This document shows positions 3,211 through 50,941 of a DNA stretch of 64,000 bases, piece after piece. The stretch lies in NCBI GenBank assembly GCA_026014745.1, contig JAOZHS010000002.1, forward strand, positions 558,001 through 622,000, given 5' to 3'. The notes beneath the pieces were generated by a model that saw only the letters and a list, made by a program, of their open reading frames with translations, did not search any database and was not told where the DNA came from. Source of the stretch: Candidatus Bathyarchaeota archaeon. GTDB taxonomy: Archaea > Thermoproteota > Bathyarchaeia > Bathyarchaeales > Bathycorpusculaceae. The position numbers and the translations under genes are program-made. Numbering within the stretch: position 1 is the first letter of the stretch; each line of letters begins with the position of its first letter.

Positions 3211-4086
3211 TCAGGTTGACATCGGTGGAAGGGCTGTTTGGTCAGTTGTTTTTGCCCAGACAGCATCAAAATATGCTTGGCAAGGTTTGGTTAAAGCAGG
3301 ATTTACACTCCATAATTCGGGTCCGCGGGCAAGGCTGGTTTCCGGGCTAAAAGCGATAGCTACAGTCGCATGGTCAAAAATTGCAACCACCGCGGACAGC
3401 GACTGAAGCTGAAGCCTCAACTCAAAACGCCCCGAACCCAATAATGCGTCTTGCACCCATTTTGGCAACTGATGACTATACGGTTTCTCCGTCAAAACAC
3501 GCAAGGTCACACCTCTTGAGAGTGCCTTATTTAAGGGTACTTCAAGAAGACGACTTAGCTGCTTGAAACGTTTCCAACTGGTTATAATTTCTATGGTTTG
3601 GCGAGTTTGTTTTAGGGTTTTTACGTATTTTTTGCCTCGGTCGCCCTCAATCACTGTGCCAAAACAAGGCTTCACATCCACCGCTACAGGCAAAGACTGG
3701 CTTAACCGCTCGGTTAATTGCTTGGCTTTTTGACAAAGACCACTCCATTGAATCGTTTTCCTTTCCAAAAGCATAGCCACCGCCTCCGAAATAGGAGTTG
3801 CCTCAAAAGTTGAAGGCGCTGAAACATGGCGTTGAACCAAACCTAACTGCAACAAACCATCCAACAGACGATAAAGCTCCTGACGATTTACCCCCGAAGA
3901 CCCAGAGATATCTTGCACTTTAGCATCGCCAGTTTTAAGCAAAGCTAAATAGACATGCGCCTGTCGCACTGTGAGCCCCAATCCAACTAGAACGTCTACT
4001 TCATCCAAACCAGCCCCGGATAGCCCAGATTGGCTAAAGGTTTGCAGTGAAGTTGGCGATTTAGTTAGAGTTTTTTGCATTAGCAC
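3211..4086 (-). CDS. TrmB-like winged-helix transcriptional regulator
   Basis: A 291-residue protein. Residues about 30-105 form a TrmB-type winged helix (LGLTVRQAHVYLALLKTGDAKVQDISGSSGV is spread over two helices, followed by QELYRLLDGLLQLGLVQRH), the fold used by archaeal sugar and metabolic regulators. The rest (about 120-285) resembles the phospholipase-D-like effector half seen in some TrmB proteins, but I see no clear sugar-binding signature. It stands alone between the surface protein and the K+ channel, with an AT-rich promoter region upstream (4087-4200). The effector and target are unknown. Confidence 0.7.
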   Translation of the reverse strand: MLMQKTLTKSPTSLQTFSQSGLSGAGLDEVDVLVGLGLTVRQAHVYLALLKTGDAKVQDISGSSGVNRQELYRLLDGLLQLGLVQRHVSAPSTFEATPISEAVAMLLERKTIQWSGLCQKAKQLTERLSQSLPVAVDVKPCFGTVIEGDRGKKYVKTLKQTRQTIEIITSWKRFKQLSRLLEVPLNKALSRGVTLRVLTEKPYSHQLPKWVQDALLGSGRFELRLQLQSLSAVVAIFDHATVAIAFSPETSLARGPELWSVNPALTKPCQAYFDAVWAKTTDQTALPPMST

Positions 4087-4266
4087 TCAGGCTCATTTTT
4101 CGCTAAGCGAGTATTTAGTTATCTATTTGCGCAATGTTTTTAAAAAATTATGCATTACTTAGCACAAAATTACAAAAAATTAGCATAAACAAAAATATAA
4201 TAGACTAAAATTTTACCACACTGACTAAACCGCTGGGCAAGATGAAAGGTTTTGCTATTATTGTGG

Positions 4267-46619: not shown

Positions 46620-46889
46620 AATACTGTTTTGAGTTCTGGAGTTATACATTTTTGCATAATTCAACTCGAAAAGTCGGAAATTGGGTTAGTCAGGGAATGC
46701 CTATTTATACTTTAATTAAGGGAGGGAGTGGTTCTGGTGCATTTGGGGGTGATGCCATGAAAAAATCTTCATGGTGCGCATCGGGTCACAACATAATTTT
46801 TGAAACAAAGCGGCAAGTATCTTGTTGTGTGTTACATACAGCGGCAGTCTTTTATTTGTACCAAGAAATATATCGCTCTGGGACACAGA

Positions 46890-47756
46890 ATGGACGAAGT
46901 CAGCAAAAGAAACCTCTTTTGGCTAGTGGGAATCTTTTACAACAGTTTGACTGGTTACATTTTTTGGAGATTTTTAGACGAGGTAGCAGCCATGTTTGAA
47001 ACATGGATGTTAAATTTGGAAGGGTTATTTGCTGTTTCCATGTTCGTGAGTGGCTTAGCACTTATTGGTGTTTTAATAGGATTATGGAAAAAGACCCCAC
47101 ACTTATACACAGATTTATCCTTTGTAACAATACACTTTATCCAACGAAACGGTACACCAGACGAACCTACTAACCCTACATACATTTTGGATAGTAGGGC
47201 CGATAAAAGAATAGCTTATTCTGTAATATCTTTACCTAGTTGGTTAGTGCATAGTGTAACAAATGGGAAATTTGTCTGCGTGCCACATGATAGTGAAACA
47301 GCACTTAAAGCCGAATTTATTCAACAGGGGATTACTATCGAGGAAAAACAAGAACCAACCCCTCGAATGTTAGGTATAAGGTGTAGGACAAATAACTCGC
47401 TTTTTATACACGAAAAGCCGCTAGATGAAAAACAATTATCCGTTTTGAAAAGCAAAAAAATTGATAATATTAAAATTGTATATTTGCATCCTTGGTTGCG
47501 AAAAGAGGTTTCTCCTCCAGCTAAAAGACTACTTATAAAACAATGTTCGCCAACACAATATGAGGTTTATGAAGGAATCGCCCATGATTTAGAATTAACA
47601 GATAATGAGATTCTTGGTTTCCAAAGTTATTCGATTTTTCCTTGGGAATTTTCTATTCGATTTTGGTGTTGGCGTTATCCACATTTATCGTTTCACCGTC
47701 ATGCGAAATACATTAAATGGCATTATTCATTAAGTCAGTTAGAAAAAGATTATTGA
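46890..47756 (+). CDS. Orphan protein with two membrane helices, 288 aa
   Basis: Start ATG 46890 (MDEVSKRNLFW) with GGGA 8 bases upstream; the frame is open further to 46800. Residues about 5-25 and 40-65 are hydrophobic helices (VSMFVSGLALIGVLIGLW), and the remaining 200 residues form a cytoplasmic domain I do not recognise. Base composition is clearly more AT-rich than the biosynthetic genes, and codons favour AAA, ATT and TTA, as in the rest of 46.7-50.8 kb, which suggests transfer. Confidence 0.5.
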   Translation: MDEVSKRNLFWLVGIFYNSLTGYIFWRFLDEVAAMFETWMLNLEGLFAVSMFVSGLALIGVLIGLWKKTPHLYTDLSFVTIHFIQRNGTPDEPTNPTYILDSRADKRIAYSVISLPSWLVHSVTNGKFVCVPHDSETALKAEFIQQGITIEEKQEPTPRMLGIRCRTNNSLFIHEKPLDEKQLSVLKSKKIDNIKIVYLHPWLRKEVSPPAKRLLIKQCSPTQYEVYEGIAHDLELTDNEILGFQSYSIFPWEFSIRFWCWRYPHLSFHRHAKYIKWHYSLSQLEKDY

Positions 47757-47849
47757 GACTTTTCTTGGTTCTATCAAGTCTGCGGTATTCAAAAATAAGA
47801 AATTAATATAGAAAAATAGAGAAGGCAAACAAGTCAATGGGCTGGTAAA

Positions 47850-48056
47850 TTATCCAAAAGTAACGTAAATTCTTTTTGAATTTGTCTCGTCAACAATAGA
47901 CGCTATTGGCACACTTCTTTTAACTGCCGCTATACCGTCTTCGCAAGATTGCTTTGTTGTATATGTCTCGCTTGTAGCTATTATTTCATTGTTATCGGCT
48001 TTTAAAACCCAATAGAATTGTTTATTGCTTGAGTCTTTTATTGCAAATTTTGCCAG
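47850..48056 (-). CDS. DUF1508 (YegP-like) protein with apparent CTG start
   Basis: 68 residues ending at TAA 47850-47852. The sequence AKFAIKDSSNKQFYWVLKAD, ATSETYTTKQSCEDGI and VDET follows the DUF1508 pattern from its usual second residue onward, so the start codon must be CTG 48056. A strong GAGGTGA lies 6 bases before it, and an in-frame TGA excludes anything longer. It is about one DUF1508 repeat long. Family members are stress-linked or of unknown role. Confidence 0.75.
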   Translation of the reverse strand: MAKFAIKDSSNKQFYWVLKADNNEIIATSETYTTKQSCEDGIAAVKRSVPIASIVDETNSKRIYVTFG

Positions 48057-48106
48057 TTTTTGTCACCTCAAGCAATTAAGTGTAGTTTTGGGGGTTAAAA
48101 AGCGTT

Positions 48107-48120
48107 AACATAAATATGTT
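48107..48120. promoter_or_regulatory. Palindromic promoter element of the DUF1508 gene
   Basis: AACATA-AA-TATGTT, perfect arms, includes the TATA-like CATATTTATG read on the minus strand about 55 bases before the CTG start. Confidence 0.4.
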
Positions 48121-48167
48121 ATCAGATGCAGGGGAGGTGAGTGAAACTGAAATGTTTGTTAAAACGG

Positions 48168-48383
48168 CTAGCGTAAATTTTTATTTAAAATGGAAGTAGC
48201 TTTCAAGTCCACGATGTAAACGGTTTTGAAGTAGGGGCTGTTAAGCAAATCAGACATTACCTCAGGGTGATTATCGCCATAATAGGCTTTCACAACCGTT
48301 AGCAGGTCATCCTCGCTTACTTGCTGTCCGTCCTTTAAGCCTAAGTCTTGGATTACGGCTAGGGCTTTCTTGTCATTTTCCAT
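48168..48383 (-). CDS. Small hypothetical protein, 71 aa
   Basis: A soluble, mostly helical 71-residue protein: MENDKKALAVIQDLGLKDG, then QQVSEDDLLTVVKAYYG and a short beta-prone end. No family recognised. Composition matches the AT-rich island. It lies between the DUF1508 and NYN genes on the same strand. Confidence 0.5.
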   Translation of the reverse strand: MENDKKALAVIQDLGLKDGQQVSEDDLLTVVKAYYGDNHPEVMSDLLNSPYFKTVYIVDLKATSILNKNLR

Positions 48384-48425
48384 AATAATCCATCTTGGAA
48401 TTTCATTGAGTGCCCTACCAAATAG

Positions 48426-49019
48426 TTAGGATAATAATTTGGACGATGGTGTTTTTCGCACTCGTTCTAATAGGACTTTTGTAATTTCTGACCTTTCGGA
48501 ACAAGCTAGACGTAACTCGTCGTGTATCCTAGTATTACCAATGTTTGAATACCAAACATGGGTTAATATTTGAGCACGATTGGCTTCATCAATTGCGGGC
48601 ATAAAGTCGCTATCGCCTGTAACTAAAATGGCTTTGTTAATATTGTCCTTCCATATAGCCCTAGTTAAGTCAACTGTTAGTAAATTATCAACTCTTTTCT
48701 GTTTGTATTTAGTAACTCTATCTCCACAATTAACACATTGAGTATCAATGCGGCTAAGTTTACCCAGTCTTACTTGAAATCGGGGATAAAGTTTCAAATT
48801 GTACATAAACTTATCAAATGTTGCCTTTTTTGTTTTTTCGATAGTCGTTGGTATTGCACTTTGAAATGGCGGAGCGTCATAGTAAAATGTAAAAAGGCGT
48901 TCATAGTTGCCACAAAGTAAATCTGAAAACTTACAAAAATCAACATCATAAACGCCGAGATTTTCTCTTACTTTAGCAAAATAACCGCCATCTATGAAAA
49001 CAGCTGCTTTATCAGCCAT
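48426..49019 (-). CDS. NYN-domain (LabA/DUF88-like) putative ribonuclease
   Basis: 197 residues, PIN-like NYN fold: AVFIDGGYFAKVRE (first Asp), FYYDAPPF, QKRVDNLLTVDLTRAIW (Lys/Asp) and LVTGDSDFMPAI (acidic pair), which together form a metal-dependent nuclease site. A CxxC (QCVNCGDRVT) lies in the middle and could bind zinc. Promoter TTTTATATAC lies about 35 bases upstream. Such proteins cleave RNA and are common next to mobile elements and defence genes; the role here is inference. Confidence 0.8.
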   Translation of the reverse strand: MADKAAVFIDGGYFAKVRENLGVYDVDFCKFSDLLCGNYERLFTFYYDAPPFQSAIPTTIEKTKKATFDKFMYNLKLYPRFQVRLGKLSRIDTQCVNCGDRVTKYKQKRVDNLLTVDLTRAIWKDNINKAILVTGDSDFMPAIDEANRAQILTHVWYSNIGNTRIHDELRLACSERSEITKVLLERVRKTPSSKLLS

Positions 49020-49091
49020 ATAGTTACCTCTCTCCCTACTTGTCGGTAACTAGTATATAAAACAAGATTATCACTAAATACATACGACTGC

Positions 49092-49114
49092 CTGCCGTCC
49101 TCGACGAACGGCAG
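49092..49114 (-). terminator. GC-rich hairpin downstream of the transposase
   Basis: CTGCCGT-N9-ACGGCAG, perfect 7-bp arms in an AT-rich context between the transposase stop and the NYN promoter. Could also mark the element's left end. Confidence 0.35.
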
Positions 49115-49156
49115 CGAAAACAACATGGATTCAATTGGACAGATTTACTTATAAAT

Positions 49157-50269
49157 TTATTGGCTTGCTTTTTTTGCATTCTGAATTAGGGTTATCCACT
49201 TGTTTTTGCCTTCGATGGTTATTCCACATGCATCTGCGGGGGTTTTTCCGTTTAGAGCTTCGTGTGGTCGGATGTAGTTGTGGTAAAGTTGGTAGCCTTG
49301 TAGGATTGGTGTTTGTTTCTTTTTGAGTCCACGCATTGTTTTTTCGCGGTCTCGGATTTCTCCGTTCATGCGTTCCATTTTGTTGTTATTGTGACATTTG
49401 CCGTCAAAGGTTATTTTTCGGGTGTGGACTGATTGGGGAAAAATATCTTTGGCTGACACTGCATAGGTTGGTAGTCCGTCGGTGATTATGGTTTGGGGTT
49501 GCTTTTTGGCGATGCGTCGGGCTTGCATGAATAACTGTTTTGCGTCGTGTTTGTCTTTGCTGTCGGCTACTTCTTGGGCTATCCAGAAGCGTGTTTCGTC
49601 GTCCATCATGGCAAAGAGGTATTTGAGGTTGCCTTTGACTTTGATGTATACTTCGTCTGCTCTCCAAGTGTTTGACACGTTGGGCTTTATCTTTTCGAGG
49701 TAGGTGTTCATTAGTGTAACATATTTTTTGACCCATCTTAGTATGGTTGAGTGGTCTACGTTTATGCCTTGGAGTTTTAGGAATTTTTGGACGTTGCGGA
49801 AGGATTCTCCTGTGAAGTAGAGTTGCATGGCTGAGGTTACGATTTGGGGTGTGGCTTTTAGTTTTTGGAAGCCTAAGTTGATTGAGAAGCGTTTGCCGCA
49901 GGTTTTGCATAGGTATCTTTGTATGTCGCCGTTTTGGTTGTGTCGGATTGCGTTTTTGACTATGTTTTCTGAGTTGCAGTATTGACAGGTGTGTACGTTG
50001 ACTTCTGGGATTACTCGGTTAACTTTGACTTCTGCTCGGATGGTTAATGAGAATTTGACGGCGTGAATGTGTTTGCACGTGGTGTGTCGGTAGGTGTTAT
50101 CTGGGCAGTCACAGAACCATTCACCGTCTATCTTGTTAATGGTGTATTCACCGTTGCCGCTTTGAGATTTTACGATGTATAGAAGTTCATCTATGCGTGT
50201 TACTTGTCCGTTTGTGTTTGCGATTGTTTGTCCGCGTTCTTCTCTGGTTGTAGTGTGTTGGGCTAACAT
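49157..50269 (-). CDS. DDE transposase with SWIM zinc finger (IS6-like group)
   Basis: 370 residues. An N-terminal SWIM finger (WFCDCPDNTYRHTTCKHIHA, C-x-C...C-x-H) is followed by an InsA-type zinc ribbon (CQYCNSENIV and CKTCGKRF), an HTH (SFRNVQKFLKLQGINVDHST) and a DDE catalytic core: Asp in WRADEVYIKVKG (about 206), Asp in IITDGLPTY (about 262) and Glu in KMERMNGEIRDRE (about 300). It looks intact. I could not find convincing terminal inverted repeats, so the element limits are unknown. Confidence 0.85.
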   Translation of the reverse strand: MLAQHTTTREERGQTIANTNGQVTRIDELLYIVKSQSGNGEYTINKIDGEWFCDCPDNTYRHTTCKHIHAVKFSLTIRAEVKVNRVIPEVNVHTCQYCNSENIVKNAIRHNQNGDIQRYLCKTCGKRFSINLGFQKLKATPQIVTSAMQLYFTGESFRNVQKFLKLQGINVDHSTILRWVKKYVTLMNTYLEKIKPNVSNTWRADEVYIKVKGNLKYLFAMMDDETRFWIAQEVADSKDKHDAKQLFMQARRIAKKQPQTIITDGLPTYAVSAKDIFPQSVHTRKITFDGKCHNNNKMERMNGEIRDREKTMRGLKKKQTPILQGYQLYHNYIRPHEALNGKTPADACGITIEGKNKWITLIQNAKKASQ

Positions 50270-50272
50270 GCT

Positions 50273-50379
50273 TATACCTACACGTATACCTAAGCAATAG
50301 GTTACTTAAAAGCTTTTAGGTATAAACATAGGTATATTAAAATACTGCTCAGGGCTAAATTATACCTAACCGAGGTATA
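50273..50379. promoter_or_regulatory. Cluster of TATACCTA sites between transposase and AbrB genes
   Basis: Exact TATACCTA at 50273-50280, 50285-50292 and 50361-50368, its complement TAGGTATA at 50317-50324 and 50329-50336, and a one-mismatch GAGGTATA at 50372-50379. The first two and the two complements are each spaced 12 bp and face each other; the last two face each other just before the AbrB ATG. The array covers the promoters of both divergent genes. Confidence 0.65.
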
Positions 50380-50382
50380 ACA

Positions 50383-50565
50383 ATGGGAGAAATAACATAC
50401 CTAAACAAAGCCTCACCCAAAACAGAATCACTCAGAACAACCGTACCACGAAGCATCATAGCCCAATTTGGGCTAACCGAATACGACAAATTAGAATGGA
50501 TTTTAAAGGCTGAAGGGGGCGAGCTAATCATTCAAGTTAAGCCACAAAAAGGAGAGATTCGCTAA
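50383..50565 (+). CDS. AbrB/MazE-type DNA-binding protein
   Basis: 60 residues with the SpoVT/AbrB swapped-hairpin pattern: SLRTTVPRSIIAQFGLTEYDKLEWILKAE, ending in a strand and IIQVKPQK. As an AbrB dimer it would bind repeated short sites, and the TATACCTA array immediately upstream is an obvious candidate for autoregulation. It may be an antitoxin-like or transposon-linked regulator. Followed after one base by a small membrane protein. Confidence 0.75.
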   Translation: MGEITYLNKASPKTESLRTTVPRSIIAQFGLTEYDKLEWILKAEGGELIIQVKPQKGEIR

Positions 50566-50566
50566 C

Positions 50567-50797
50567 ATGATTCCATTAGCAAATATTCTAACAATTACGG
50601 GCATACTTATACAGACGGGAGTCATATTTTGGACGGTAAGGAGTATTTTTTACAGTAAACAAAAATATCAAAATCAAGAAAAAAATGAATGGTTTGCTGG
50701 TAACGTACAACAAAATAGGGAGCGGCGAGAACAAATTCCCGTCATGATTGCCCTCGTATTTGCATCTATTCTTCAAATCGGGGGGTTGTTGCTTTAA
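50567..50797 (+). CDS. Small two-helix membrane protein, 76 aa
   Basis: Hydrophobic helices at about 4-30 and 58-76 flank a charged loop (SKQKYQNQEKNEWF, QNRERREQ). GGAGAG lies 6 bases before the ATG, and the gene directly follows the AbrB-like gene, so the two form an operon. Family unknown. A toxin role beside an AbrB antitoxin is possible but untested. Confidence 0.55.
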   Translation: MIPLANILTITGILIQTGVIFWTVRSIFYSKQKYQNQEKNEWFAGNVQQNRERREQIPVMIALVFASILQIGGLLL

Positions 50798-50941
50798 TAC
50801 GCACATCACCCGCCATGCACCAGAGAGAAGAAATTTTTAGCGCACCCGAAGATGCACCAGAACCGAGGGAGTAGATCCTCAAAGGTAGCTGAGGCTGCAT
50901 GAATCCAAAAATGGAGAAACTGCAGAAAGAAATTCTGCTGT

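Follow-up and report, generated by a model that had tools for sequence, protein, structure and literature searches.

An array of putative operators between the transposase and AbrB-type genes of a Bathyarchaeota IS6-like transposon, part of an apparently exchangeable regulator cassette

Temperate phages (the lambdoid phages, or Mu with its c repressor) carry divergent promoters and repeated operators, and their repressors and operators are exchanged as modules. For transposons, the nearest published idea to the one developed here is, by analogy, that of the toxin-antitoxin pairs in the Tn3 transposition module (PMC7157771). In the Tn3 family, small DNA-binding proteins (AbrB, RHH and others) adjoin the transposition genes; elements gained them on repeated occasions, in part through recombination with other elements. 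The pairs were proposed to control the transposition genes; 39 of 190 elements had such pairs, always with a toxin and near res sites (PMC7157771). The IS6 review mentions one member with a passenger gene (ISDsp3) and describes transposase control as little known (PMC7986276). In a survey of thaumarchaeal mobile elements, IS-like transposons consisted of one or two genes (PMC6563490).

The elements described here, called SWIM-IS6 elements after a SWIM-like domain of the transposase, resemble the Tn3 family in having small DNA-binding-type proteins of several families beside the transposition genes. They differ in that the regulator stands alone opposite the transposase in nearly all of them and has intergenic sites of its own, and in that no toxin recurs. 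With phage immunity regions they share divergent promoters, repeated putative operators and modular exchange between otherwise similar elements; unlike phages, they are small archaeal DDE transposons in which unrelated folds replace one another. The initial annotation expected element-borne control of the transposase to be new for this IS group, and no description was found in the open-licence IS6 literature; one could exist elsewhere.

The window (the whole 64-kb stretch of DNA that was analysed, from a Candidatus Bathyarchaeota archaeon) contains one element with the following features.

46722-46729, no strand: left copy of the 8-bp target site duplication GAGGGAGT, identical to 50865-50872
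46730-46749, + strand: left terminal inverted repeat GGTTCTGGTGCAT..., 17/20 bp matching the right end
46890-47756, + strand: cargo ORF, 288 aa, membrane-type, without assigned function
48168-48383, - strand: possible small cargo ORF, 71 aa, coding status uncertain, without family match
48426-49019, - strand: cargo gene for a 197-aa NYN-domain protein (PIN-like nuclease fold; PF01936, E 3.8e-10, above cut-off)
49157-50269, - strand: IS6-type transposase, 370 aa, with SWIM-like and zinc-binding N-terminal domains
50383-50565, + strand: AbrB/MazE-type regulator, 60 aa
50567-50797, + strand: cargo ORF, 76 aa, with hydrophobic stretches, directly 3' of the AbrB gene, without reliable family match
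50815-50824, + strand: ATGCACCAGA, a subterminal repeat of the right end, 37 bp inward
50845-50864, - strand: right terminal inverted repeat ...ATGCACCAGAACC
50865-50872, no strand: right copy of the target site duplication GAGGGAGT

The end motif was obtained by k-mer enrichment 3' of the transposase gene. The words TAACAGAACC and TGACAGAACC were strongly enriched in relatives and their mirror images were found beyond the upstream genes, so they were taken as element ends. The window ends have diverged from these words to ATGCACCAGAACC. The 13-mer mirror image predicted from the right end, GGTTCTGGTGCAT, had one exact match on the left, at 46730, with GAGGGAGT before it. Since the left end matched and GAGGGAGT stood on both outer sides, the element was delimited to 46730-50864 (4135 bp), with IS6-like ends GGTTCTGGTGCAT...ATGCACCAGAACC and an exact 8-bp target duplication. 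These borders enclose the AbrB gene and the array, which therefore belong to the element, and a host-borne regulator outside it is ruled out; a position outside would have refuted the initial annotation. The initial annotation had proposed to map the ends by comparison with empty sites. No empty site was seen in 29 congener loci, where homology stopped at or just past a leuA-like gene, short of the junction; the ends come instead from the inverted repeats and the duplication. Two other delimitations were rejected. An inverted-repeat search up to 500 bp downstream gave no shared ends closing around the transposase alone, and neither a right end to match it nor a duplication was found for an internal GGTTCTATCAA at 47767, tried as left end. 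At 47767-47777, GGTTCTATCAA with GTCTGCGG after it looks like the left ends of related elements and is perhaps an older end within the present one.

The transposase passed the NCBIfam model NF033587 (transpos_IS6) with 138.5 bits for a cut-off of 125 and matched Pfam DDE_Tnp_IS240; its SWIM match (18.7 bits) was just under the cut-off of 19.6. Inverted repeats starting with GG and having CTG inside, together with an 8-bp duplication, were found in the window and in 47 other elements, and the GG..CTG end consensus is that given for the IS6 family (PMC7986276). The locus is thus like IS6/IS26 in its DDE transposase, its ends and its target duplication. It is unlike typical members, which are short single-gene elements with transposases mostly of 220-250 aa: here the transposase has 370 aa and a SWIM-like domain, and the 4.1-kb element carries several other genes, among them cargo and a divergent regulator. 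Longer zinc-finger clades exist within IS6 (PMC7986276), and it was argued that the archaeal and long zinc-finger members do not belong in the family (PMC6807381). C-terminal-only fragments of the transposase (about residues 257, 278 or 310 to 368) recur in many genomes, in loci L099-L104 and in viral contigs L189-L195; several start near residue 278, with about 65-75% identity. They may stem from elements with internal deletions, or represent a domain that has been reused.

The start codons of transposase and AbrB are separated by a 113-bp region with the following sites.

50273-50280, + strand: site A1, TATACCTA, adjoining the transposase start codon
50285-50292, + strand: site A2, TATACCTA
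50317-50324, - strand: site B1, TATACCTA, central pair
50329-50336, - strand: site B2, TATACCTA, central pair
50361-50368, + strand: site C1, TATACCTA, at the predicted position of the AbrB TATA box
50372-50379, - strand: site C2, near copy TATACCTC, overlapping the GAGGT that adjoins the AbrB start

A site count agreed with the initial annotation on five exact copies and one near copy at 50273-50379. The layout given there was likewise recovered: two tandem pairs oriented toward each other, and a further pair, inverted, where AbrB starts. Pairs A and C lie 4-23 bp ahead of the two start codons. Elsewhere in the 64 kb only three further copies of TATACCTA occur (0.73 expected). The best 8-mer of the intergenic region occurs there five times exactly, without overlap. 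When the region was shuffled 20,000 times with dinucleotides preserved, the best count was 3 (104 times) and at least 4 was never reached; other 113-bp stretches of the window, overlapping ones aside, had 3 copies at most. The exact tandem pair TATACCTA-N4-TATACCTA, with a step of 12 bp, occurs twice here and nowhere else in the 2.7-Mb genome.

The 60-aa AbrB protein matched Pfam MazE_antitoxin with E 3.4e-4 and 21.0 bits, under the curated cut-off of 24.7. Its predicted model is strand-helix-strand-strand (beta-alpha-beta-beta; pLDDT 74). The best PDB matches of the model were weak and none was significant: the AbrB-type proteins C56 (pSSVi) and C68 (pSSVx), then, among the others listed, EcMazE and AbrB. 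A sequence search found no AbrB relatives among solved structures. A plasmid collection gave a single distant match (28%). Homologues 54-87% identical lie divergent to relatives of the window transposase in three other genomes, with arrays arranged in broadly the same way. In L089 (about 3900-4104), an AbrB gene (59% identical) lies about 1 kb from a distant IS6-type transposase with a TTACCT/AGGTAA row upstream; AbrB with such sites thus extends beyond this clade. L065 3390-3858 (own genome, C3:177389-177866) is a decayed relic, in which a partial AbrB gene with a stop codon lies beside a C-terminal transposase fragment on the same strand. For the 76-aa ORF behind the AbrB gene, family searches gave no toxin match; the PIN-like NYN gene is elsewhere in the element. 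The 288-aa ORF had no match in Pfam, NCBIfam or PHROG, and its homologue (28%, E 1e-16) is cargo of another AbrB-carrying element (L114).

Eighty-four loci were compared: the window and 83 with a usable transposase, from 80 archaeal-genome and four viral-contig relatives. Many come from metagenome bins; L131 and L153 are labelled bacterial and may be mis-binned. The branch covers Bathyarchaeota, Thaumarchaeota, Methanoperedens, Methanoregula and one Asgard archaeon. Ends with an 8-bp duplication were found systematically in 48 of the 84 loci, whereas combining the left end of one locus with the right end of another gave 4 of 1655; the span, window aside, was 1970-5663 bp (median 3260). A small divergent gene with a DNA-binding-type fold faced the transposase inside the borders in 44 of the 48 delimited elements, and no regulator was recognised in the other four (L111, L169, L180, L186). 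Clustering with phmmer gave RHH of two kinds, zinc ribbon, several AbrB-like kinds and winged helix as regulator classes; the fold names were given by the analyst from the sequences, and the singletons L113, L121, L127, L129, L139 and L173 were placed by eye. Pfam agreed for many regulators at modest scores, with RHH_1 and zinc-ribbon models among the matches, and 17 of the 28 AbrB-like regulators matched MazE_antitoxin at E 0.1 or better (best 5.2e-9). DNA binding by the zinc-ribbon class is assumed from its fold. One regulator of the compared set matched Pfam DUF2080 (PF09853, 'Putative transposon-encoded protein') with E 1.4e-8; it is likely the 47-aa AbrB-like protein as in L121, and the family name suggests that a transposon association was noticed before. 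The open-licence literature yielded no paper on DUF2080 function, element borders or operators.

The AbrB of the window is element-borne, as the initial annotation allowed, but in most relatives a regulator of another fold, with other sites, takes its place, so AbrB is one partner among several. The general feature is therefore an exchangeable regulator cassette and not an AbrB cap. The four transposase relatives L053-L056 (31-35%) had no clear divergent regulator, while L052 (37%) and L095 (46%) had one, so this trait may belong to one clade only. Cargo behind the regulator varies freely, but the regulator itself always faces the transposase. Across L105, L142, L134, L115 and others, the cargo includes type I restriction-modification genes (DNA methylase, specificity), GmrSD-type, HNH and ParB genes, and four proteasome-subunit-like proteins. 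The element cargo showed no recurrent toxin family. In L107 and L109, just 3' of the transposase, a conserved stretch has complementary ends (GGTTAGCGG...CCGCTATCC and GGGTAGCGG...CCGCTACCC) around a shared core, possibly a structured RNA or a recombination site. At L145 (Nitrosotalea t3.48), the outer flanking bases are inverted copies, CGATTAAA / TTTAATCG, and not a direct duplication.

Paired TACCT sites with 12-bp spacing and a similar layout were present in the window and in L112, L114 and L119, all of the AbrB class (p 0.01-0.02 each, 100 shuffles); in the distant AbrB members L161 and L182 repeated sites fell short of significance. Repeated sites reached p 0.05 in 26 of 75 intergenic regions (combined p 5e-13 over the 75), so a clear array is not universal. 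Intergenic 6-mer similarity was greater within a regulator class whatever the transposase identity (partial Mantel r 0.295, p 0.0005), a similarity that may come partly from shared descent of the cassettes and not from binding. The nearest intergenic neighbour shared the regulator class in 77% of cases, versus 15% by chance, and still in 71% when neighbours were limited to those with transposases less than 60% identical. The nearest transposase relative shared it in 15%.

On the transposase tree, regulator class changed 47 times (46 without one long branch), close to the 50 for shuffled labels; at fold level the figures were 34 and 33.9. Between the window and L119, the AbrB proteins are 87% identical and the transposases 58%. 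In sister elements the transposase is kept up to about its start codon and the remainder differs; in several sister pairs, the last 52-61 bp at each end are also kept. Two pairs of orthologous insertions have the same site, ends and transposase and different regulators. In the first, L151 of Nitrosotalea devanaterra (zinc ribbon) and L162 of a related genome (RHH) occupy the same chromosomal site, with flanks 83% identical on the left and 95% on the right and 7 of the 8 duplicated bases in common; their near-identical transposases adjoin unrelated intergenic regions. In the second, L147 (AbrB type) and L179 (RHH) have flanks of 72% and 84%, and the left end of L179 was not found. Different regulators at one site mean either that the cassette was replaced inside a standing insertion or that the element was replaced there by another. 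Recombination between elements is the simpler reading.

We consider, with a probability of roughly 0.7, that the array consists of the operators of a transposon-borne repressor, placed over both promoters and exchanged with it as a cassette. Sequence comparison establishes the borders, the position of gene and array, the generality of the arrangement, the correspondence between sites and regulator class, and exchange. The regulator would bind the sites, repress both promoters and so limit transposition. In archaea, repressors commonly work by occupying TATA/BRE or start sites. In the window, the 60-aa AbrB/MazE-type protein would be made from the right-hand promoter and would bind paired TATACCTA half-sites that cover each start region and the space between. 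Bound AbrB would then hold down its own operon (AbrB and the 76-aa ORF) and the transposase. Pair B could add cooperativity or looping; looping by an AbrB dimer or tetramer, which the initial annotation suggested, is no more than possible. Between elements, the SWIM-type IS6-like core that is kept would be the transposase and about 55-60 bp at each end. A cassette would comprise the small divergent regulator, matching operators and cargo, and whole cassettes would swap, most simply by recombination at the conserved blocks.

The regulator might instead serve the cargo, as an antitoxin- or controller-like protein for the gene behind it (the 76-aa ORF here, restriction-modification genes or genes without assigned function elsewhere), with the transposase promoter merely adjacent. 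The regulator and the next ORF are codirectional and almost touch, its folds are common among antitoxins and some of the cargo is restriction-modification. However, the sites come as close as 4 bp to the transposase start codon and are placed symmetrically with respect to both genes, the regulator keeps facing the transposase while the cargo changes, and no toxin family recurs; we regard this explanation as unlikely. It is much less probable still that the array is bound by the transposase, in a regulatory or synaptic role, and that the small protein is an unrelated passenger. The array does abut the transposase gene, and the protein has extra zinc-binding and SWIM-like domains, but the intergenic motifs track regulator class and not transposase kinship, as in L151 and L162.

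The copies might also be mostly promoter and ribosome-binding sequence (TATA, GAGGT), resembling one another in an A+T-rich region. The copies adjoining both start codons, A1 and C2, read (T/G)AGGTATAA..ATG on the strand of their gene and overlap Shine-Dalgarno-like AGGT/GAGGT, and the first G of GAGGT is precisely where C2 departs from the consensus. A1 and C2 may thus in part be ribosome-binding sequence. C1 is placed as expected for a TATA box if the gene is leaderless. A ribosome-binding role is not possible for the other four copies, and the central pair B fits neither role. Five exact 8-mers were never approached in the shuffles, and the layout recurs with AbrB homologues while other regulator classes have other motifs. 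Of all the explanations, this one appears the least credible.

If the array is the operator set of a transposon-borne repressor, SWIM-IS6 transposons might form immunity groups like those of phages. A resident repressor would silence newcomers with the same operators, and selection would favour replacement of the whole repressor-operator cassette, even by an unrelated fold, with transposase and ends kept. We put this forward tentatively and hold it to be somewhat doubtful. Avoidance of same-class elements within one genome was not seen (3 of 21 pairs of the same class versus about 12% expected, a comparison of low power), and there was no enrichment either.

Several consequences follow for this group of elements. 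Tens of small archaeal regulators are now paired with likely operators. Elements can be found and delimited by a rule, a regulator cassette between conserved ends and the transposase, and the cargo so delimited includes restriction-modification genes. In a widespread archaeal branch, a dedicated regulator-type gene is almost always present, with its fold and sites exchanged as if drawn randomly. Competition between small transposons over repressor specificity, as in phages, becomes directly testable.
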